From Syncephalis fuscata (taxonomy: Eukaryota; Zoopagomycota; Zoopagomycetes; Zoopagales; Piptocephalidaceae): DNA of 20,946 nucleotides. Both the position numbers and the translations under genes were made by a program. The DNA lies in assembly GCA_025786725.1 (NCBI GenBank), contig JAHLTZ010000158.1, positions 1 to 20,946 of the forward strand, written 5' to 3'. Position 1 is the stretch's first letter, and each line of letters starts with the position of its first letter. This document shows, one piece after another, positions 895 through 17,264 of the stretch. Below the pieces are notes generated by a model. The model saw nothing but the letters and a program-made list of their open reading frames with translations, searched no databases and was not told where the DNA came from.

Positions 895-3372
895 ATGAAG
901 CTTTCTATTGCCGCCGTTTGCACCATTGTCGTGGCTATCATGGCCAGTACAGCCATGGTAGATGCTAAACCAGCCTTAGTTCGCCGTGGTGGTATGTTGC
1001 AATAACAATAAATATACCATAATATTTTGTTTACTAACATTGTTTTTAAATAATAATTATAATAGAATGTAAGCACTATTGTATATTAACTGACTATACA
1101 TTAACTATGCCATTTATCAACTATACCGACTATTTAATATTAATAGCTCGTAAGTCGTATTGTATGTTAATAGAGCATACAATAATTATATACTATGCAT
1201 TACCTCCATCAATAACTTGATATTAGTAACATGTAAGTTGTATTGTATAGCAATCACCTACTCGCTAATTGCATATTATGCATCATGTGCATCAATGATT
1301 TAATAATAATAGGCGGTAAGTAATACTGTATATTGATTAACTATTGACTAATTATATACCATGCATTGTGTGTACCAAAAAATTAATGCCATAGAGGGTA
1401 AGATGTATTATATGTTAATTAACTGTTCACTAACTTTATATTATACACCACGTATATAAAAAACTTAATATTAATAGAATGCAAGTTATATTATATATTA
1501 ATTAAACATTGACTAATTACATTTTATGCACTGTGTATCAATAACTTAATAGGCAGTAAGTAGCATTGTATGTTGTTGATATAAGTTAATTATGCATTAT
1601 GCATTGTGTATATCAACAACTTAATGCCATAGGAAGTAAGTTGTATTGTACATTAATTAAGTATTAATTAGTTATATACTATGTAATGTGTGTATCAATA
1701 ACTTAATATTACCAGGCAGTAAGTTATATTGTATATTAGTTGGCTATACATTAACCATGTTATTTACTAATGATATTAATAACTTGATACTAATAGAATG
1801 TAAGTTATATTGTATATTAATTAAACATTGGCTAATTACATTTTATGCACTGTGTATCAATAACTTAATATTAATAGGCAGTAAGTGATATTATATATTA
1901 ATCGACTATACATTAACTATGCTATTCACTAATTGTACTGCTTATTTAATATTAATAGAGGGTAAGTGGTATTGCATACTAATTAACTATGCTATTCACT
2001 GATTGTACCAATTGTTTAATATTAATAGAATGTAAGTAATATTGTATGTTAATTAACTATACATTAACTATAATCTTTGTTAATTGTGCCAATTATTTAA
2101 TATTAATAGGGAGTAAGTGATATTGTATATTACTTAATTGTACATTAATTGCTATTTACTGAATGTGCTAATTATTTGATATTAATAGAGGGTAAGTGGT
2201 ATTATATATTAATTAACTATACATTAACTATGCTATTTACTAATTGTGTTAATTATTTAATATTAATAGACTGTAAATGATATTGAATATTAATTAACTA
2301 TACATTAACTATGCTATTTACTAATTGTGCCAATTATTTGATATTAATAGATAGTAAGTGATATTAAATATCAATTGACTATACATTAACTATGCTATCT
2401 ACTGATTGTGCTGATTATTTAATCTTAATAGTTAGTAAGTTATACTGTATATTAACATGCTATTTACTGATTGTATCAATTGTTTAACATTAATAGGTGG
2501 TAAGTTGTATTGCATATTAACAGACTATACATTAACTACGCTATTTGCTGATTGTGCCAATTGTTTAATATTAATAGCCTGTAAGTTGTATTGTATATTA
2601 ACTGACTATACATTAACTATGCCATTTATTGATTGTACCAATTATTTAATATTAATAGGTGGTAAGTTATATTGTATATTAACTGACTGCATTAATTTTA
2701 CCAATTATTTAATATTAATAGTGTGTAAGTAATATTGTATATTAATTGGTTATATAGCAACCATGGTATTTATTGATTGTATCAATTATTTAATATTAAT
2801 AGTTAGTAAGTGGTATTGTATATTAACTGATTATACATTAAATATGCTATTTATTGATTGTACCGGCTATTTAATATTAATAGAATGTAAGTTGTATTGT
2901 TTATTAATTGATTATTCACTAATTACATGCCATTTACTGCGCATCAACAACTTAATATTAATAGGTAGTAAGTAAAGCTATGTATTAACTGAATATGCAC
3001 TAACTACATGCCTTGTATTATGTACAAATAACTTAATATAATAGGACGTAAGTTGCATTATGTGTCGATTAACTACTTGCTAATTATATGCCATGTATTA
3101 TGCGTATAAATAACTTAATATAATAGAAAGTAAGTTGTATTATATATTAATTAAATATCCACTAATTATGTGCCATGTGCTGTATCCATCAATAAATCAA
3201 TATTAGCGGAATGTAATTTGTATAGTATATTAATTAATTCCTCACTAATTACATGTTATGCACTATGTGTATCAACAACTTGATATTAATAGGCGGTAAG
3301 TAGCATTGTATATTGATAGATTATGTATTAGTTATGTGTAATATAATATATTTATTTGTAAATACAGAATAA
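895..3372 (+). CDS. secreted six-cysteine peptide encoded by about 29 single-codon exons
   Basis: Exon 1 (895-991) encodes a signal peptide (residues 1-24, hydrophobic core ending V-D-A), a short propeptide and Arg-Arg at residues 30-31. It ends in phase 1 at a GTATGT donor, with branch site TACTAAC at 1032-1038. Exons of 3 nt then start at 1066, 1147, 1227 (6 nt), 1313, 1395, 1478, 1553, 1633, 1716, 1797, 1878, 1959, 2029, 2110, 2189, 2270, 2351, 2432, 2497, 2578, 2659, 2722, 2803, 2884, 2965, 3045, 3127, 3207 (6 nt) and 3293. The last exon starts at 3368 and gives TAA at 3370-3372. The joined CDS is 195 nt (64 aa). Cysteines fall at 37, 40, 44, 54, 58 and 63; each codon is split across an intron, with T from one exon and GC or GT from the next. 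The CxxxC-x9-CxxxC core resembles alpha-hairpinins (inference). Function is unknown: effector, antimicrobial or signalling peptide are all possible. The main alternative is one 2.4-kb intron filled by a minisatellite, which would leave only 33 residues. Confidence 0.82.
992..3367 (+). repeat. tandem array of about 30 intron units, modal period 81 bp
   Basis: Unit structure is donor GTAAGT, about 40-50 nt with TTAACTA or CTAAT branch-like sites, then a TTAATATTAATAG-type acceptor, 3 variable nt and the next donor. Most intron parts are 76-80 nt, with 78 commonest; shorter ones are 60 (2662-2721), 62 (2435-2496) and 67 (1962-2028). Two sequence subfamilies are visible. One carries an ACTATACATTAACTATGC block (1069-1146 and most of 1881-2883). 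The other carries a CACTAATTACATG / TGTATCAATAACTTAAT block (about 1150-1715 and 2887-3292). Acceptor and donor motifs are conserved while the three nucleotides between them vary freely and are richer in GC, the opposite of what neutral minisatellite drift would give. Confidence 0.9.
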
Positions 3373-5134
3373 TCGATGGTTTCAAGACATCAGCATTGGT
3401 GGTGCAATCAAGCCACTATTCCAATACACTTTAGGTATATATTTGGTGAAAAGCAAGACCATTTGACAACTACGCCGTCCAGTCTATCTATATATCAAGT
3501 TTTGGCCAATGCTCCGATTTATCCAGTCTTTAATCAATGGAATCCTTATTTTATCAACATGTTTGCATCTAGTTGTCCCTATTCAGCTGTGCAAGCTTAT
3601 CGTAATAAACTTATGGTTTCATTTTAACAAGATAATAATAATAAATTGCCAATTGGATTTTAATACTGAGAAATAATTTATTGAAGCAGTGCTATATCAT
3701 TTCCAATTAATTCAAGTGATAAGTCAGCCCGCATTATTTTTAATATCCAATATTAGTGTCAATAAATGTTAAATAATATTTTATATTGTTACTATATCGA
3801 TTTTAAGGTACTGTAAAGTTTGTAAACAGCCAAAGTAGGAGGGAAAGCGGTAGGGATGGCTTAGCAAACTATAAATACTTAATTAATAAAATTGTTATTA
3901 AATATTTACGTAATGGACTTTGTTACCAACAAATAGCTTTGTTTAGCACTTTACACAGAGGTCACAGCTGTATAAACCTGAAATTTAAGCTAAAAGAAAA
4001 CGTTGGGAGCAAAAAAGCTGTTTATTAACTGTTTGGCCGACAGTATTATAATACTTAATACTTTCGGCATTTAAAATGGTGTATACTGCAATGGGCCCTG
4101 ACGGGAAAAGCTTAATTAAAGTACGACAAAGCTTAAATTGAACTTCGTTAAGTACGTAATTTAAGCATTGGTAACAATATTATATACAATAAAATATACC
4201 CACTTTAGCCACTGATCATAATAAATGGCTAACAAATTTAATTAAATTGTATAATAATGTTAAATGAAACACAACAGTTTACATAATTATCCCGTTTATT
4301 CAACTCAATTAACGCAATAATCATTGATATCATTACTAAAATAGCTAACATGAGTGTAATTGTAGTAAATGTACCTCATTGTAATATGCTAATATTCAAT
4401 CAATCTTTTTACACATGGCCAACAACAATAATGATTAACCTCAAATGTCTTAATGAAATCAAATACTATTAATAAAAAGTAATATAAATATATTGTGTAT
4501 AATAATGGTATGACTTTAAACAAAATTTACTTTAAGGACTCAAAATAGAGTGTGAAAAATAAATGTTAATCAACTTTAGTATATAATTAGATACTGTGTT
4601 TTACACAAAAAGACACAAGTAATGTAAATATAAAGGCGCATTTTACTTTGGATCAAATAAGTTAATAGGATAATGTACTTATTAAAATGCTAATAAATCT
4701 AAATATAAAGATTACATGTGTTTAATATGTGCAGTGTTAGCTTTTAGTCTTGCAATTTCAATCATATCGTATTAATCCATCTAATAATAATAGTGATTAA
4801 ATGACATTAATTATTAATATTTCTACTAAATGCTGTTTATAAAGTTATAATAAATTTACTTATTTTATTCAATCGATTTAAACAGGCAATAAAATACTGA
4901 ATTGTTTATCATTTTATAAATATGATGTCTAACAAACGTCATCACATTTTCTTATTTCTTATTATTGACTGTGTACAAGTGCCGTCATTTCACCAATCAG
5001 CCATCTTTACGCATTCTCTTCCCAAACCAATTCCATCGCCTGTGTCTTTCATTTGCTAACAAGAGTATATTGGATTCTTGAGCCTATTCTCTAGTTTAAT
5101 TGGCGTTTTAATCGCAAAACAGAACTATATTACA
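3373..5134. other. 3' flank and long intergenic stretch
   Basis: An open frame of 83 codons (3376-3627, +) starts just after the peptide stop codon and in the same frame. Its composition is less AT-rich than its surroundings, but I recognise no domain, so it is left as possible 3' UTR or read-through sequence. From 3630 to about 5060 the sequence is very AT-rich with no convincing gene. The only notable structure is a perfect 9-bp inverted repeat, GCTTAAATT at 4131-4139 against AATTTAAGC at 4158-4166. Confidence 0.5.
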
Positions 5135-8100
5135 ATGTCGGTTGCCAAGGATGCAGCAACTATCGAGCAGTTTCGAGCATTCCGTCGAATGAATCTCGAT
5201 GCATGGCGAAGCAAGCCAGGTATGTTATACTCGGGCCAACTAACAAGAATGACAGACTTATACATGAATACTATACAGATCCAGAACAGTTTAAGAATCT
5301 AGATTCTAATCTAAAGAAAAATACCGCGTTTATTAAAAAATGCCGCGCCTCGTTAGGCCAAGATGCCTTAGCACAGTTGAAGCGTGATATCAAACAGCTT
5401 AAACTTGAAAAATATGTTAGTGAAATTGTTACCGCAATACCAGAGGGTCTACAGCGGTGTAAGCGAGAAGCAGACGTTACGGCAGCTGTAGAAGTAAGTA
5501 CAACAATGAGTTTAATTCAATCGATATTTAAAGATTAATGTGTGTATTTTAAGATTGTATCATTGCTACACCAGCGATTTGCTGATACGTTTTCCGTACC
5601 ACTAGCTCAACAGCTACAACGGGCCATGGCGCCAACACCCAAAGCACATCTTGCCTCATTATCGGCTGAACAACGAGAACGTGAAGAAACAGCCAGAGTA
5701 TCAAAACAACGCATTCTTGGTCGAATCTTTGTTGATTTATGGCTAGTGGGCATATTTGCGGGTATTGATGGTGGAAAAGAGAAAGAGCGTAATATTCGTA
5801 TTGATGATCATGTTGTGTTCCAATGTTTCTACAATTTGGTAAGTTATTTAACTGATGTATACTGAGTTAATAGACTATAACTTAATGCATCTATATTTGC
5901 TATGCCTAGCTGAAGGACGATGCAGATCATATTAATCTTTTATTGGCAACGTCTTTTACTCGGTATTATGGCCTACAAATACTAAATATTGCGGCTCGTA
6001 AAGTGCGTAAAACAGCCGACGGTCAAGATGCTACTACAAACATAGAATCAAGTAAAGAAGAGAGCCTGAAACTATATCCCGATGATATTATATCCAACGA
6101 ACTACGCCAGAAATACCTTAATCTATTCACTGAATATTATCATTCAGTGGCCAAACATCTGGTTCGTGACTATCGTGTAAGTATAGTATGTATATAATCG
6201 ATAGCGTTATTATTGATAGAATTGAAGTATATGAAACGACTTGAACGAAGAAATAATGAATGGGCCATTGCTCGCGGTGAAATTACCGAAGAAACTCGAC
6301 AAAACTTTGACCGTGTAGTGAAGAATTATGAAAAGTTACAAAGTAGCACTCAAAGGTAAATAAATAGCAAATAAAAAGGTAGAAATACTAATTACTATGT
6401 ATACTAATTGGTTTATTCGTAGTCTGGCCGATTATTTGGACAAAGATTTGCCTGAATTACCTGTAGAAGAAGACACATCAGTTGGTGTATCTTTAGTTAA
6501 GGCAGGAGGCAGAGATGAAGATGAAACAGTTAGTATTTATTAATAATATTGATATAATAATTAATTAATATATCAATCGTTATCAGGATATGGGAAATGG
6601 TGTATGGGAAGATGAAGATTCTAGACTATTTTATGAATCAACATTAGATCTCAAAAATGCTGTACCAGCCATTCTGTTAGAAGGACGCAAGAATAAGAAA
6701 GAGTCAACGGCTAATACGGTAAATGACGAACCCGCTGAATTGTCACAAGATACACAAGCAACAATCGATGAAGCATCTCAGCCATCATCAAAATTAACAT
6801 CAACAGCAACAGCAGATGCTCATGAAGTAGAAGAAGCAATGCGACAGATGATGGAGCGTATGGGTGTTGCCGAAGAAGGCGATGAAGATGAAGACAACGA
6901 CGATGCCGATGATGCAGCCAATCCAGACTCGCTCTTTAATCAACATTTAGATGAAGCAACAGCAACAACAGCAAATGATGAAGAGAAAACAGTCGATGAA
7001 GGTGGCATGGCCGCCAGTGGTAAGATTGGTACATCGGCTAAACTTGACAGTTTATTAGCACGATTACCAACTATGAACAACCGAGAGCTTATTGATAGAG
7101 CAGCCATAGACTTTTGTTTTCTTAATACAAAAGGATCTCGTAAACGATTAGCTCAGGTAAATTGTAGCAACTATATCATTTAATATTGATACTGATCAAT
7201 ATGATAGGCATTATACAATGTACCACGTACTCGGTTAGATCTACTACCTTATTATGCTCGACTAGTAGCCACATTACACCCATATATGCCAGAAATTAGT
7301 GAACTTGTTTTAGGTGGATTAGAAAGTGAATTTCGCTATTTATCACATAGAAAGCGTCGACAATTACTTGAATCACGTATTAGGAACATTCGATTTATTG
7401 CTGAATTAGTGAAGTTTGATGTAACGCCACTACATGTGGCATTCCATTGTTTTAAAGTGCTGCTTGATGATTTTTTATCAGAAAGTATTGAAATCTTATG
7501 CCATTTACTTGATAGTTGTGGTAGATTCCTTTTTAGAACACCGGCTACGCATGCTCGTACAAATACTATGGTAAGTTGTATTAGTGTATTATTAATAGAC
7601 AATAAATGAACTAATAGTAATAACAATAATATACAATATATAAAATACAATACAATTAGCTGGAAATTGTTATGAAGAAGAAACAGGCTCTACCATTGGA
7701 TGCCCGTCTTACTATGATGATCGAGAATGCTTACTACCAAGTGAGTAAAATGACACTTGTAACAAGTCAAAGTAAAATAGCTATTAATAGTGTATATTTA
7801 TTTGTATTTATATATAGTGTAATCCACCCGAGGTAGTTGCTCGTGAAGAGAAAGAACGCACACCCATCGAGCAATATGCACGTAAATTGATATATATCGA
7901 TTTAGGACCTCGTACAGTAGAAAAAGTATTGCGTAGTCTACGTAAATTTGATTGGGATGATCCAGAAGTATGTCAATAGCTACAATTTTATTACCAATAT
8001 TCTAATATTTTAATATTATTAGATTGTTACTATGATGGTTAGACTATTAACAAAGCCATGGAAGATTCAATACAGCCAATTACACTTATTAGCTGTATTG

Positions 8101-9881
8101 GCCAGTGGTCTCTATCGATACCATAGCGATTTAGGTGTTATGGTAATTGATACGCTATTAGAAGAGATTCGTGTTGGTCTTGAGGTAAGTAGATGAAGTA
8201 TAAGTATTCAATAATAAGCTAATTAATAAATGTAAATGAACTATAAATAGAAAAATCTATTTAGACAAAATCAACGACGTGTATCAGTTGTTCGATATTT
8301 GGGAGAATTGTATAATTATCGAATGATTGATTCATCCATTGTATTTGAGACACTTTATACAATTATTACATTGGGTCATGGTAAGTATACTATTGATGTT
8401 AATGATACTATTCTTATTCAATATTCTATAGAAAATGGTAGACCGGCATGGGGTAGAATCTGTTGGTTAGATTTACCAAATGACTTTTTCCGTGTACGAC
8501 TATGTTGTGTTCTACTTGATACATGTGGCATCTACTTTAACAAAGGGCCATCTAAAGCACGATTAGATGCATTCCTTACCTTCTTCCAGGTAATGATAGC
8601 TATAATTGATGTTTATTACGACAACTAGACTATACTAACACGAAATAATAGATGTATTGCCTTACTAAGAGTCAAATGCCTATGGATGCCGATTATATGG
8701 TGAAGGATCTATACGATGTAAGTTTACTAATATAATATTTATTAATGAAATGACAATTAATAATCTACATATACGTCATTAGCTATTAAGGCCACACATG
8801 AAGCTACATGCAACCTATGAGGCTGCACAATTGGCAGTTGATGAGCTGTTAATGGCAAATCTAAAGGCAGTACAAGGTATATTTATTGCATGTAGTATCT
8901 ATAAACAACCACTAATCAATAAACTATAGAGGCTACAGGTGACACATCACAAGTTACCGGTCCTATGGCAGATCCAATTCAGTTGCCGGATAACGAAGAA
9001 GAGTATTTGGAAGACGAGGAGGAAGATGACGACGATGAAGATGAGGAAGAGAGTGAGCGTTCAGATGAAGATGAAGATGAGGAGGACGATGAAGATGAGG
9101 AGGAAGAGGAGGAAGAGGATGAGGATGAAGAAGAGCTACCACCTGCTGACAATGATGAACATGGCACATTTGTTGATCCTGATGACGATAATGTTGTAGT
9201 AGTATTGGGTAGAAAGGATGAGACGAGTATTGATGAAGAGTTTGAAAAGGAATTCAGTCTTATGATGGCAGAAAGTTTGGAATCTCGTAAATTTGAACGT
9301 AAAGCGGGTACATTAGATGTGGCAATTCCCATGCATTTACGTGGATGTAAGTGGTGTGACTAACATTTATTGTATACTATGTTAATATTTACTGTACAAT
9401 TACTATAGCGAATCATGAACCCTTAACCGTTGATACAGTGACGCCATCTGATGGACAACATGTATCATTTACGTTATTATTAAAGCGTGGTAATCGACAA
9501 CAGGTGATTTAAACGAATAGACGGAGATGATGGTACTGATTATGCAATTATTTAGACCAAGATAGTGGATGTGCCATCAGATTCAGCCCTAGCTGTTTCT
9601 ACTCGTCAGAAACAGTCTGCAGAGAAAGAAGAGAAACAACGACTAAAACAACTAGTGTTGAACTATGAAGAGAGGGAACAAGCTCAAGAGATGCAATGTA
9701 AGATAATTTAAATAGATCATTGTATTACATTTATGATACTAATACAATCAATATTGCTATTACCCTATGACTAATAACAGCTTTGAAGCGTTCACTGGCC
9801 CAACAAGGTGTACATCTAAAGCACTCGGGACATGGACGTAGCCAGCGTGGCCGATCAAACCCATCACTTTACGAACAATAA
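5135..9881 (+). CDS. UPF2: UPF2, nonsense-mediated mRNA decay regulator
   Basis: Scaffold that bridges UPF1 and UPF3 on mRNAs ending translation prematurely; cytoplasmic. Nineteen exons join without a break to 1204 aa (human about 1270): 5135-5219, 5279-5493, 5554-5838, 5910-6176, 6228-6355, 6423-6528, 6587-7156, 7208-7570, 7660-7740, 7818-7967, 8023-8184, 8251-8380, 8432-8589, 8652-8717, 8783-8876, 8930-9346, 9409-9503, 9556-9697, 9781-9881. MIF4G-1 covers roughly residues 40-265 (KKNTAFIKK, IVSLLHQRF, LKDDADHINLLL). MIF4G-2 is about 510-715 (LDSLLARLP, TRLDLLPYYARL). MIF4G-3 is about 730-945 (FFRVRLCCVLLDTCG). An acidic tract spans about 974-1024, and the UPF1-binding region about 1093-1165 (LKRGNRQQTK). 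The ATG at 5135 lies in a good context. The exon 4/5 junction uses the AAG acceptor at 6225-6227, because the nearer TAG would bring a stop. No sign of decay. Confidence 0.96.
8990..9140 (+). repeat. Asp/Glu-coding low-complexity tract inside UPF2
   Basis: Runs of GAT, GAC, GAA and GAG codons encode a nearly uninterrupted acidic stretch of about 50 residues between the third MIF4G domain and the UPF1-binding region. UPF2 proteins are known to carry an acidic segment here. The antisense strand shows a poly-serine frame that is an artefact of this tract. Confidence 0.85.
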
Positions 9882-12903: not shown

Positions 12904-13891
12904 TTACTCAAATATATAAGTTGTAGTTATTCCAGTCACACCGAATCTATTACGAGTAGTTGTTTGATCCTCGATCGATACTTTGGATGTTGTTGTTGGT
13001 TTAGTACGTGGTTTTGTTGCCGTATATGATTCAGGTAACATGTGTAGATTGTATATGTTGTTTACAAGTAATGTAGCCGCTATCGCCCTATACTTTTCAA
13101 TTTAGTACTTTACACGTATGAAAAATTTTAATTTTTACTTACCAATCAACGATATACAGTAAATCACCATTTTCTTTAATTACCTCGGTTGCATTGATGA
13201 TAAAACATAACATATTCGATGCAACTACTAATAGCATTGTAAGCACGCCGTCTTTTGCCAGTTTTTTCCAACATGCTTCTTGGTATCGTTTATAATGACG
13301 ATAAATCACCATAAGGAATATTGCAGAAAATATAATATTGGATGGAAGGTCAAGGGCTATTCGGGCGTATGGAAGATATGATTTGTATTGAATATAGCAT
13401 CCGTGGATTTCACTATATCGGGAAGTTGATGAATATTGTACAATGGTAATGTATATGGGGCCAGGGACAATGATCAGTATAATGCCAATTATTAAAAACC
13501 ATCTTGGACGGCCACATGCAAGGTAGGCACGTTCAAATAGTACAACATTTGTGAGTGCTAATGAAAATGTTGCCCCAACTATTATGGCCCAAATTAATAT
13601 GTGGCAGGATAAGGAACCTAGTGCAAGAGATGGAAAGCCAATAAGCACAAACAGCATTATACCAGTCAGATTTATAGTTAAGCAGCACCATGGAGCGAGT
13701 TTACGCGGATAAGCAGATACTACAAATCCAGCGCGATAAGCATTTCTTAGGAAAATGGACAGCACTATTATACCAAATAATATTTGGAAATTGATTGCTA
13801 GATAGCGTCGCCTTAACGAATCTATTTCATCGCGTGCTTCCCATACAAAATCTATGCTGTTCAAATTTCCTGACAAATCACCTTCTATCAT
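12904..13891 (-). CDS. 7-transmembrane receptor-like protein, copy A
   Basis: Two exons, 13891-13143 and 13087-12904, join across a 55-nt intron inside the seventh helix to 310 aa. Seven hydrophobic segments are visible after a short N-terminus: about residues 31-52, 60-85, 92-118, 125-150, 175-200, 220-243 and 250-272. The tail is Thr-rich and hydrophilic. Helix 3 ends in F-E-R-A-Y-L-A, reminiscent of the E/DRY motif of rhodopsin-like receptors; basic runs such as YRHYKRYQEACWKK lie between helices 5 and 6. G-protein coupling is inference. The start M-I-E-G-D-L-S-G is chosen because all three paralogs begin at this ATG, although the frame stays open upstream to 14086. It has no frame break. 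It lies 97 bp from the GCNA-like start, on the same strand. Confidence 0.8.
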
Positions 13892-14012
13892 GTTATTAAT
13901 ATATATATAAATTATCTTTGACTGGAAATTATGTATAATATGAGTGTAGACTACAAAAAAGAAAGGCCTTGCAGGGCTATTAAAAGTGGGTGCAAGGATA
14001 GATTGATGGAAG

Positions 14013-14091
14013 CAACATGACGCGTGATTGGTATGTAAACGGGTTAGGTGCATGCATATCATACAAGATAAATCAGAATGCTGCAAGCTTA
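14013..14091 (-). promoter_or_regulatory. conserved upstream block of 7TM copy A
   Basis: About 120-200 nt before the start of copy A, this block is strongly alike to the matching block of copy C. Shared pieces include GCGTGATTGG/ATATGTAAAC, GGTTAGG/GGTTTAGG, GCATGCATAT and CAGAATG (plus-strand sense). Copy B keeps only a degraded version at about 15613-15647. It could be a shared regulatory element or simply recent duplication. Confidence 0.4.
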
Positions 14092-14503
14092 GTGGTTAAA
14101 TCTGACTTAAATACATGTACTAAACGTCTAGTAAAAATCGAGGCTTTGCATAAGCCGTCGTATTAAATTACAGCATAAACTGAATGCACTTAATATAGTC
14201 AAACAGTACAGTTTAAAGTAGATTTTTATTATAAAGATAACCAGCTAAAAGATTTATGTTTAGTTATGTCCGAATATTATTTTATATCTTGTAACTATTT
14301 AAAGCCTATGCTCTATGTATTGTGTAACCTCTGAGTATCATTAAGTGCTGGATTTATGGTCTATTCATAACAATACAATTATAGTATTCATATTACATAT
14401 TATATTTACAAGTGTTAATGAGGCCATGTCAGTATCATTTATATAATATTGAAAACCTTTGCCATAGAATCAATGTATTTAATCAGCGTTTGTTGTTATC
14501 AAA
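14092..14503. other. spacer between 7TM copies A and B
   Basis: AT-rich spacer without a gene that I can support. Unlike the spacer before copy C, it has no recognisable remnant of GCNA exon 1. Confidence 0.45.
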
Positions 14504-15490
14504 TCACTCAAACATATAAGTTGTAGTCATGCCTGTCACTCCAAATTTATTGCGAGTAGTTGTTTGGTTCTCGATCGATACACTGGATGTTGTTGTGGGT
14601 TTAGTACGTGATTTTGTAGCCGTGTATGATTCAGGTAACATGTGTAGATTGTATGTATTATTTACAAGTAATGTGGCCGTTAATAACCTATACTCTTCGA
14701 GTTAATACTTAACACGTATAAAGTGTTTAAAGTTTACTTACCAATCAGCAACATACGTTAGATCACTGGTTTCCTTAAATACATTGGTTGCATTGATAAT
14801 AAAAGATGCTATATTTGATGCAATTATCAATAGCATTGTAAGCACGCCGTCTTTTGCCAGCTTTTTCCAACATGCTTCTTGGTATCGTTTATACTGACGA
14901 TAAACCACCATACTAAATATTGCAGAAAATATAATATTAGGCGGAAGGTCGAGGGATAGCCGAACATATGGAAAATATGATTGATATTTAAAATAACATC
15001 CATGTGTTTCATTGTATCTGGGAGTTGATGAGTACCATACATTAATTACGTATGCGGGGCCGGAACCACCAACCATTATAGCGCCTAATATTAAAAACCA
15101 CATTGGACGATTATATGCAAGATAGGCACGTTCAAATAATATAACATTTGTAACTGATGATGAAATTGTCACTCCGGCTATTATAGCCCAACCTAACGTG
15201 TTGCAAGATGCGATACCCAGTGCAATAGATGGAAGGGTAATAAATACCGACAGTAATACGCCAACTAAATTTATAACTAAACAGCACCATGGTGCGATTT
15301 TATGAGGATAATTAGCTACTATATATATAGCTCGATAAGTATTTCTTAGAAAAATGACTGCTGCTATTATTGCAAATAATATCTGGTAATTAATTGCCAA
15401 ATAGCGCCGCCGTAACGAAGCCGTTTCATTGCGTGCCATCCATACGAAGTCTGTGCTTCCCAAGCCTCCTGACAGGCTATCTTGTGTCAT
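14504..15490 (-). CDS. 7-transmembrane receptor-like protein, copy B
   Basis: Exons 15490-14742 (749 nt) and 14687-14504 (184 nt) have the same lengths as in copy A and give 310 aa. The same seven hydrophobic helices, FERAYLA motif at the end of helix 3, basic YRQYKRYQEACWKK loop and Thr-rich tail are present. It differs from copy A in the N-terminus (MTQDSLSGGLGS, then MARNETASL) and in helix 4, where it has a GGSGPAYV segment shared with copy C. The frame is intact with canonical splice sites (GTAAGT, TATAG). The stop is TGA at 14504-14506. Role as an orphan receptor is inferred from topology only. Confidence 0.8.
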
Positions 15491-15612
15491 GTTATTAATA
15501 TATGAAAGCTAACTTTGAATAAGCAATTATGTATAGTATAAATACAAACTAATAGAGGAAAAGCATTACAAGGCCATGGAAAGTGGCTACAAAGGATGGG
15601 CTGATGGGGGAT

Positions 15613-15647
15613 GACATGATGCATAATTGGCATGCAAACAGGTTTTA
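15613..15647 (-). promoter_or_regulatory. degraded conserved upstream block of copy B
   Basis: This is the counterpart of the upstream blocks of copies A and C. It keeps the ATTGGCATGCAAACAGGTTT portion (plus-strand sense) but lacks the GCATGCATAT and CAGAATG portions seen in the other two. Copy B may therefore be regulated differently. Confidence 0.3.
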
Positions 15648-15900
15648 AATGAATTTACATTCTTTATATTAAGTAAAAGCGCCCGCAGACCAATGTTTAG
15701 TCTTTGGTTTAAAATATATGTGTTAGGCTTATAGTAAAAGTAATTACAGGTTTAATTAAATGTAAGTTAGATATTGGTTGCTATTTGTCGCTAACCGAAC
15801 TAGTTATAAATTTGTTTTACTCACTAATCTATATGCACAATAACCTCATATTGCTACTTATGTTTTCCCATTCTATATTAGCTTTAATGTATAATATTAT

Positions 15901-16040
15901 CTTCTTGCAGAGTTGAAGCCACAGAAGTTCAAGATTGGCACAAAATATTTAAGAGTTACTCGGTGTTTGGAAGCTCGTATTTTGAGCCTGCGCTTAGTAT
16001 TATAAAAATATTGTTCGTCGGTTTGACAATAAAATAAAAT
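15901..16040 (-). pseudogene. relic of GCNA-like exon 1
   Basis: The segment is clearly alike to 12689-12835, the first exon and upstream region of the GCNA-like gene. Shared pieces (plus sense) include CTTCTTGC, AGATTGGCACAAAAT, GGAAGCTC, the CTTAGTAT-like tract and AATAAAATAAAATG. The start codon is lost (ACG in its place) and the reading frame is broken. It sits in the same position relative to copy C as the real exon does to copy A, so copy C was duplicated together with the 5' end of the neighbouring protease gene. Confidence 0.82.
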
Positions 16041-16158
16041 GCTTATAACGTTTTTGCTTATTTGCTTTTATATAAACAATTAATGTATTTCATTAAATAG
16101 CTATTCGTACATTTATTAATAGTTCGATAATTAAATTGACAAATAAAGATGTAACAAA

Positions 16159-17142
16159 CTATTCATAAATATAAGTTGTAGTTATTCCAGTCACACCAAA
16201 TCTATTACGAGTGGTTGTTTGATCCTCGATCGATACCTTGGATGTTGTTGTTGGTTTATTACGCAGTTTTGTAGTCCCATATGATTGCGGCATCATATGT
16301 AAATTGTATATGTTGTTTACAAGTAATGTAGCTGTTATTATCCTATATTCCTCGCTTTAGTATTTTACACATAAAGTGTTTCAATTTTACTTACCAATCA
16401 GCAACATACAGTAGGTCACTTGCTTCTTCGAGCATTCTGGTTGCACCTACAATAAAGCATATTATATTCGATGCAACCACTAATAGCATTGTAAGCGCGC
16501 CGTCTTTTGCCAGCTTTTTCCAGCAGTCCTCTTGGTATCGCTTATAATGACGATAGATCACCATACTAAATATTACAGAAAATATAACATTAAATGGGAG
16601 GTCGAGGGATAGTCGAACATATGGAAGATATGCTGGATACTTAAGATAACATCCATGCATTTCATTGTATCTAGGAGTTGATGAGTACCATACAGTAATT
16701 ACGTATGCAGGGCCGGAACCACCAATCATTATAATGCCTAATATTAAAAACCACATTGGGCGATTACATGCAAGATAGGCACGTTCGAATAATACAGCAT
16801 TTGTAATTGCTGATGAATTGTCACTCCGGCTATTACAGCCCAGGCTAACGTGTTGCAAGATGCGATACCCAGTGCAATAGATGGAATACTAATAAATACC
16901 GACAGTAGTACGCCAACTAAATTCATAGCTAAGCAGCACCATGGAGCGAGTTTACGAGAATAAGCAAATACTACATATCCAGCGCGATAAGTATTTCGTA
17001 GTAAAATAAACACCATTATTACACCAAATAATATTTGATAATTGATTGCTAGATAGCGTCGCCTTAACGAATCTATTTCATCGCGTGCTTCCCATACAAA
17101 GTCTATGCTTCCCAAATCTCCTGACAAATCATTTTTTATCAT
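16159..17142 (-). pseudogene. 7-transmembrane receptor-like copy C, 1-nt frameshift
   Basis: Exons 17142-16395 and 16342-16159 match copies A and B in structure. Exon 1 is 748 nt rather than 749: one base is missing at about 16816, where the run encoding G-V-T-I-S reads ATTCATCA against ATTTCATCA in copy B. This throws the frame at the start of helix 3. Downstream, FERAYLACNRP and all later helices remain open in the shifted frame, and the splice sites and stop (TAG, 16159-16161) are intact. The break is therefore very recent or a sequence error; if an error, this is a third functional 310-aa receptor. It is mosaic: its ends resemble copy A and its middle copy B. Confidence 0.78.
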
Positions 17143-17264
17143 GTTATTGATATAGAAACTAACTTTGAATAAAACAGTAATAAACAATATGGATATAGAT
17201 TAATAGAAGGAAAACGTTACAAGGTTACCGAAAACTGCCATAAAGGACAAGCTATCAAAAATCT

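Follow-up and report, generated by a model that had tools for sequence, protein, structure and literature searches.

The stretch of DNA analysed here (the window; 20,946 nucleotides, nt) is the entire contig C66 (JAHLTZ010000158.1) of the genome of Syncephalis fuscata, order Zoopagales (assembly GCA_025786725.1; 28,950,602 bases, 299 contigs). Near its start, on the forward strand, is a gene that very probably encodes a secreted pre-pro-peptide, from whose message 30 introns would be removed and whose mature cysteine (Cys)-rich peptide would be assembled codon by codon. An array of 29 micro-exon sites, nearly all of 3 nt, stands between the exon for a predicted signal peptide and a short last exon, and this array is real and not a product of chance. 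The original prediction, that the mature peptide is encoded one codon per exon, gains support from stop avoidance and Cys enrichment at the exon junctions, from the arrays at all 24 loci modelled, from 1727 sites of a strict form of the pattern in the genome, and from paralogues without introns.

Structure of the window gene

Exon 1 (895..991) contains the predicted signal-peptide start and a pro-part reaching VRR-G plus the first base of the next codon, and is followed by a GTATGT donor at 992. Intron 1 (992..1065; GTATGT...AG) is alike among the array genes and unlike the introns of the arrays. The array itself (1066..3295) is made of units of ~81 nt, each with ~78 nt of intron and 3 nt of exon, its introns being 60-80 nt long. 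All of the 29 sites that had been described, in which an acceptor AG is followed by 3 or 6 nt and then a donor, were found between 1066 and 3295, 27 of them with 3 nt and two (micro-exons 3 and 28) with 6 nt.

Micro-exons 1 (AAT, 1066..1068) and 2 (CTC, 1147..1149) precede the 6-nt micro-exon 3 (TAACAT, 1227..1232), and a 6-nt exon 3 is found again in many paralogous arrays. Micro-exon 4 (GCG, 1313..1315) is followed by two with altered donors, micro-exon 5 (AGG, 1395..1397; GTAAGA) and micro-exon 6 (AAT, 1478..1480), which has a GC donor (GCAAGT). Micro-exons 7 to 15 are GCA (1553..1555), GAA (1633..1635), GCA (1716..1718), AAT (1797..1799), GCA (1878..1880), AGG (1959..1961), AAT (2029..2031), GGA (2110..2112) and AGG (2189..2191), and micro-exon 16 (ACT, 2270..2272) has the donor GTAAAT. 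Micro-exons 17 to 27 read ATA (2351..2353), TTA (2432..2434), GTG (2497..2499), CCT (2578..2580), GTG (2659..2661), TGT (2722..2724), TTA (2803..2805), AAT (2884..2886), GTA (2965..2967), GAC (3045..3047) and AAA (3127..3129). The array ends with the second 6-nt exon, micro-exon 28 (CGGAAT, 3207..3212; donor GTAATT), and micro-exon 29 (GCG, 3293..3295); an extra match of the search expression at 3332 was left out of the gene model. The last exon (3368..3445) contributes two coding bases, the stop codon TAA (3370-3372) and a 3′ untranslated region (UTR) homologous to the post-stop sequence of the continuous paralogues, position 3445 being the approximate end of the compared stretch and not a mapped 3′ end.

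The gene model reproduced the open frame that had been proposed, with a predicted coding sequence of 97+93+5 = 195 nt ending at this TAA. After Arg-Arg the mature part reads G-ESLTCEECRSKCKEWKDYISACVFKCRQTECE; its six Cys are spaced 2-3-9-3-4 and all introns of the gene are in phase 1, both as originally described. The statement that the switch to single-codon exons comes right after Arg-Arg needs amending for the window, where one Gly codon lies between, whereas several other members of the family do switch directly.

Chance controls and the pattern in the genome

When up to two mismatches were allowed, the pattern matched 27 times in the window (25 in the array, 2 elsewhere) against 0.79 expected. 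In 20000 shuffles of the window's exon order, the frame was open in 78 and open with at least six Cys in 17, and no shuffle was both open and in agreement with a regular expression for the Cys framework, which was written after the peptides were known.

The genome has 1727 exact sites of the strict form of the pattern, ATTAATAG-NNN-GTAAGT, and none of the reversed control. With other exon lengths the counts are 7 (NN), 3 (NNNN) and 4 (NNNNNN); three of these sites, two with NN and one with NNNN, fall in arrays modelled as frameshifted (L039, L057 and L053). Intron lengths of the intact genes fall in all three classes modulo 3 (125, 111 and 158 of 394); exon length is held genome-wide, while intron length is free modulo 3. 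It had been asked whether the pattern recurs in relatives: within the S. fuscata genome it is present at these strict sites and in 24 out of 24 arrays read, and the arrays of all the other loci, too, stand behind a related signal-peptide exon. In 12 modelled genes the strict pattern recovers 165 of the 396 micro-exons; by extrapolation, the genome may contain some 4,000 of them, spread over roughly 100 genes.

Adjacent single-codon exons are read together

In the proposed phase, a junction codon consists of the last base of one 3-nt exon and the first two bases of the next. An initial stop test used 11 genes chosen for being open, which made it circular with regard to stops. In its place, a junction test was made on all 24 arrays, without selection for openness and with identical introns counted once. 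This gave 566 non-identical junctions from 23 arrays, L044 contributing none. Exons whose first two bases would complete a stop codon after T stand at 2 of 186 junctions after T, as compared with 106 of 380 after another base (p 1.8e-18). Conversely, exons that would complete a Cys codon (split T|GY) follow T at 102 of 186 junctions and another base at 66 of 380 (p 2.7e-19). The stop result was retained when one array was taken from each close group (14 arrays, 427 junctions; 1/136 vs 84/291, p 4.7e-15), and also in a model-free test on neighbouring AG-NNN-GTAAG sites (438 junctions; 2/139 vs 77/299, p 2.8e-12). Avoidance of stops between adjacent exons therefore indicates that bases ~80 nt apart are read together in a message without the spacer, and supports the view that the joined single-codon-exon message is under selection as coding sequence.

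The same test bears on the most serious of the alternatives, in which splicing is combinatorial and one gene, by joining its in-frame 3-nt exons in many different subsets, gives a mixture of peptides as has been proposed for the schistosome micro-exon genes. All exons of the intact arrays are multiples of 3 nt with phase 1 introns, so that a skip keeps the frame unless the new junction makes a stop, and the near-identical donors and acceptors of the units offer little to enforce a choice. However, when each exon was paired with the second, third or fourth exon after it, stop avoidance was not significant (p 0.2, 0.58 and 0.058), and exon skipping would often produce stops or odd numbers of Cys. 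As stops are avoided for adjacent pairs only, what selection sees would be the full product in order, and a combinatorial output is improbable, although less so than the other alternatives considered below.

Paralogues without introns

Some members of the family are continuous genes, in which a predicted signal peptide is followed immediately by an uninterrupted Cys-rich frame. P0001 (C236:180381-180587) and P0003 (C212, from 183081) are both uninterrupted in the genome, and have their signal peptide and 3′ UTR in common with the arrays, along with a similar Cys framework; further continuous members are among L033, L050, L051, L054, L055 and L065-L069. Arg-Arg is absent in L069 and in one of the two continuous genes in L065. 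When eight continuous genes were compared with arrays as DNA, homology extended to CGTCGTG, the site of the array exon-1 donor, and resumed just after the last acceptor AG, continuing through the stop codon and the 3′ UTR. Each of the two common last-exon types of the arrays has a continuous counterpart. In an alignment of 11 intact array products with nine continuous proteins, three mature Cys are invariant and two more are conserved in at least 90 %. The intron-free paralogues would thus show the form expected of the spliced message. The continuous genes fall in about three places in a tree of exon 1 and the 3′ UTR, with modest support, and the continuous members read differ in mature sequence from the arrays read. 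Among the deposited proteins, P0002, P0004, P0005, P0006 and P0008 begin at the family signal peptide and have tails without the Cys framework.

The array family and constraint on its splice sites

Searching the genome with exon 1 gave 150 scored matches among 330 candidates, so there are at least 150 copies; by a count made by eye, 83 of these 150 have an open frame of at most 43 codons, like the array genes, and 67 a longer one. The 24 modelled arrays, out of an estimated ~100, comprise the window, a joined stretch (C1a) and 22 fetched loci, all from one genome, the majority found through similarity of the signal peptide to that of the window and the remainder through hits to the pattern. 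In the final models a GTATGT-type exon-1 donor is used in L059, L060 and L062, a choice that leaves the number of intact genes unchanged; L059 and L060 are near copies of each other.

Eleven of the 24 arrays are fully intact, among them the window gene and those at C68:436103, C223:405305 and C234:135860. They have 26 to 49 micro-exons, introns of 57-85 nt and one frame that stays open up to a stop within or at the last exon. In all 11 the micro-exons are preceded by phase 1 introns and the number of Cys is even, six in nine genes and eight in two. The array products have a near-constant signal peptide followed by strongly divergent mature parts.

For a test of constraint, paralogue pairs were taken in which both introns flanking an exon aligned at 90% identity or more; the eight pairs are non-independent, as L058 was used three times. 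Substitutions were found at 6 of 1135 splice-site bases and at 206 of 9689 intron bases (p 3.7e-5), which supports constraint on the splice-site bases between recent copies. Within arrays, AG and GTAAG are nearly fixed, columns which also helped to define the units, and variation is highest at the three exon bases (mismatch 0.70-0.74, as against 0.65 at most in other columns).

Positive selection on the 3-nt exons was considered and rejected. Loose alignments gave 29.7% change in exons and 7.9% in introns, with 319 nonsynonymous and 14 synonymous changes, a signal that lost significance under strict alignment: in the strict, register-controlled pairs, 13 of 402 exon bases differ, and acceleration relative to the introns is not significant (p 0.16). 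A leave-out profile of the unit gave 0.322 for the exon and 0.307 for the next highest column, so other columns vary nearly as much. As the excess under strict alignment is not significant, the apparently fast change of the exons is likely to be mostly gain, loss and register shift of units.

Evidence that weighs against single-codon exons, and the remaining alternatives

A number of observations weigh against the proposed gene structure. Part of the excess of strict 3-nt sites is owed to the common descent of the units. When stops were counted by phase in 12 genes, there were 2 in 413 in phase 0, 3 in 425 in phase 1 and 36 in 413 in phase 2; of the three in phase 1, one is the early stop of L043, and the other two are genuine termination codons that span the last junction. 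Phase 0 is thus as poor in stops as phase 1, and stop counts argue against phase 2 only, leaving the phase unfixed by themselves; the assignment to phase 1 comes from the exon-1 boundary and the Cys. Six of the 24 arrays are frameshifted or stopped early, through frame-breaking exons of 2 nt (exon 3 of C1a, exon 28 of L039 and exon 12 of L057) or 4 nt (exon 23 of L053) or through an early stop (L043 and L045). Another five (L041, L042, L047, L048 and L063) have an open frame only when a long intron is accepted, with six Cys only in L048 and L063, and two could not be traced to the end because of a large gap (L044) or the end of the contig (L056). Given these broken, long-intron and unfinished cases, either many copies have decayed or the model misses something.

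The comparisons with proteins are likewise unfavourable. None of the ten deposited S. fuscata family proteins read equals any modelled array product, and P0005 and P0008 seem to run on into array-intron sequence (LYCILTDY-like; compare the window's open reading frame (ORF) at 2457-2732). Public annotation looks wrong for these two, since their tails resemble translated array introns. A profile made from the continuous mature peptides scores the array peptides weakly, at 10.3 bits at best, and is a weak discriminator against shuffled exon orders: six of 12 array peptides were matched by fewer than 4% of shuffles, and the window's score by 29 of 490; for each of the other five peptides, between 57 and 250 shuffles out of at most 498 did as well. 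No continuous copy (retrocopy) of the window's own peptide turned up in a search, an outcome that is uninformative by itself.

It could be argued from the same broken arrays that the family is mostly decaying, its copies having been amplified recently and few if any of them being expressed now, so that the architecture is a relic. The six frameshifted or early-stopped arrays, the five open only over a long intron, and the presence of a common ~400-nt insertion in some arrays would fit this. Against it, 11 of the 24 arrays are intact across 26-49 micro-exons, and recent copies show constraint at their splice sites. We regard a mostly relic family as unlikely.

Still less probable is a non-coding minisatellite within one large intron, with exon 1 joined to 3368 to give a very short tail, and with splice-like repeats that are only the consensus of the repeat or non-productive ratchet points. 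The units do form a tandem repeat of ~81 nt, and the junction of exon 1 with the last exon is also in frame. A non-coding repeat would not account for adjacent 3-nt pieces ~78 nt apart that avoid stops and favour Cys where non-adjacent pieces do not do so significantly, nor for array products that resemble the intron-free paralogues in Cys framework, nor for constraint on the splice-site bases. Finally, excision of the spacers from the DNA to yield continuous copies, a programmed process like that of internal eliminated sequences, could explain why continuous members exist beside arrays, but is very improbable, as the spacers end in GT...AG and the continuous members read do not have the mature sequences of the arrays read; no such excision process is known to us in the phylum of S. 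fuscata.

The peptide product

In two protein searches with family members, all matches listed were S. fuscata entries named 'hypothetical protein BDF19DRAFT_...' (10 matches among 23 candidates, and 13 among 160). There was no match in Rfam; in Pfam, P0001 had none, and among 12 members there were only weak matches of single members. The N-terminus is hydrophobic and forms a helix (residues 5-20) in the structure model of P0001, which has low confidence (predicted local distance difference test score, pLDDT, 66), places three helices in the mature half, and is too weak for a fold search. In comparison with profiles of solved structures, alpha-hairpinins were matched with E values from 0.021 (best) to 0.63, which are not significant; this weakly suggests that the mature fold may be an alpha-hairpinin-like helical hairpin. 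CxxxC pairing is characteristic of alpha-hairpinins (vicilin-buried peptides, luffin P1), to which the profile likeness is weak, and the S. fuscata peptides have extra Cys; we know of no gene structure common to alpha-hairpinins and the Syncephalis arrays. Because the number of Cys is even in all 11 intact genes, the product is likely to be a disulfide-rich peptide.

Exon 1 ends with a dibasic site, and a protease of the Kex2 type would presumably cut after its Arg-Arg. S. fuscata parasitises other fungi, and from this lifestyle and the diversity of the family the peptide could be a diversified effector, antimicrobial or recognition peptide. One deposited protein, P0007, from a contig with the length of C1 (1005272 bases), has the family signal peptide and no Cys after it, and consists of lysine-rich, amphipathic-looking segments parted by KR. 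It looks like a precursor of several peptides, and the family signal peptide is thus common to quite different mature products.

Proposed mechanism

We infer the splicing itself, its order and the function of the peptide from the DNA sequence. In the proposed mechanism, exon 1 would supply the predicted signal peptide and the dibasic site, and the spliceosome would remove 30 short introns: that following exon 1, the 28 that part the micro-exons from each other, and that preceding the last exon. The 29 exons of 3 or 6 nt would thereby be joined, each intron being placed after the first base of a codon. Introns of 57-85 nt would be short enough for recognition across the intron (intron definition), and recognition carried by GTAAGT inside the intron fits with exons whose bases can spell any codon. 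Where only 3 nt part an acceptor from the donor that follows it, both would be hard to occupy together, so removal is likely to be stepwise, each step setting a GTAAGT donor beside the growing exon in a ratchet that leaves one codon behind. The steps could run from 5′ to 3′ or in two alternating waves. The chemistry is presumably that of ordinary spliceosomal splicing. Peptide variants would arise largely as entire 81-nt codon units are gained or lost, with the frame kept.

A bolder view, which we put forward tentatively and hold to be somewhat less probable than its negation, is that the array is a peptide-writing device. Recombination between units would add, delete or swap residues, the ratchet would read ~30-50 introns in order, or perhaps chosen subsets of them, and reverse transcription would freeze some of the products as continuous genes, so that minisatellite turnover is turned into new disulfide-rich peptides.

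Comparison with known systems

Each of four known systems resembles the arrays in one respect; none of them, as described in the cited passages, has single-codon exons throughout, and no homology to them was found. Schistosome micro-exon genes have tandem, symmetric central coding exons in multiples of three, in multiple copies, with sizes of 6 to 36 base pairs (PMC3961193). The Syncephalis arrays likewise consist of tandem symmetric coding exons in multiples of three, but 27 of the 29 internal exons in the window are of 3 nt, with 1727 strict N3 sites against four N6 sites in the genome; they also belong to a different phylum, the protein-search matches listed being all from S. fuscata and none from a flatworm. 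Aphid bicycle genes encode fast-diverging putative effectors, and have a mean of about 17 exons, among them many small internal ones that nearly all start at codon position 2 (PMC9168663). In all 11 intact arrays, too, the internal exons are small and start at codon position 2, although those of Syncephalis are of 3 nt and lie in near-identical repeat units. Bicycle exons are longer than this, and no match to bicycle proteins was found in protein, Pfam or structure-profile searches of family members.

Micro-Ex8 of Drosophila homothorax shows that splicing can include an exon of 3 nt (PMC7392893); it is a single such exon in an ordinary gene, whereas in the intact arrays 26-49 in a row form nearly the whole mature product. 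In Drosophila ratchet points and recursive-splicing exons (RS-exons), an acceptor is directly followed by a donor and the intron is removed stepwise; ratchet points are within long introns and leave nothing in the mRNA (PMC8605326). The arrays differ in having 3 nt between AG and GTAAGT, with one codon left per step and introns of ~78 nt; the N0 spacing was not searched.

No single-codon-exon arrays and no description of this Syncephalis family were found in the open-access literature, as covered by titles and the openings of abstracts, most subscription papers lying outside it. We regard the proposed gene architecture as new in kind; on a stricter view it would be an extreme variant of micro-exon genes.

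An inserted element and neighbouring genes

An element of ~400 nt (GAAGAGCTTGTGAGCCCC...) is present in array introns of L044, L047, L056 and L063 (reverse strand), and also in the C1:474793-478613 stretch, L027 and L035. In four of these cases it begins behind a T-rich run ~20 nt past the donor, and array sequence is repeated on both sides. At its far end are apparent transfer RNA (tRNA) A and B boxes in reverse, motifs that we take to be tRNA-like, and the element may be a tRNA-derived short interspersed nuclear element; ARAGORN found no tRNA in it.

Directly downstream of the array gene in the window is a UPF2/NMD2-like gene (~5137-9363, forward strand) with two MIF4G matches. Its position next to an array is probably a chance neighbourhood, although UPF2 is a nonsense-mediated decay factor. 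On the minus strand, 13139-17187 encodes similar hydrophobic proteins (ORFs 13139-14086, 14738-15490 and 16391-17187) that are probably membrane-spanning; a Pfam scan of two of the three gave no match.

Implications

If the proposed structure is true, one-codon exons across a whole family would set a new lower limit of gene architecture, with exons too short to hold exonic signals and splice sites too close for easy joint binding. The ability of the spliceosome to keep order over 26-49 near-identical units would become testable. Since none of the ten deposited family members read equals an array product, annotation can miss such genes. Tiny symmetric exons in the secreted families of parasites, in flatworms, aphids and now a fungus, suggest a common evolutionary reason, and the arrays of S. 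fuscata would be a eukaryotic gene form that gains and loses protein residues via the turnover of repeat units.

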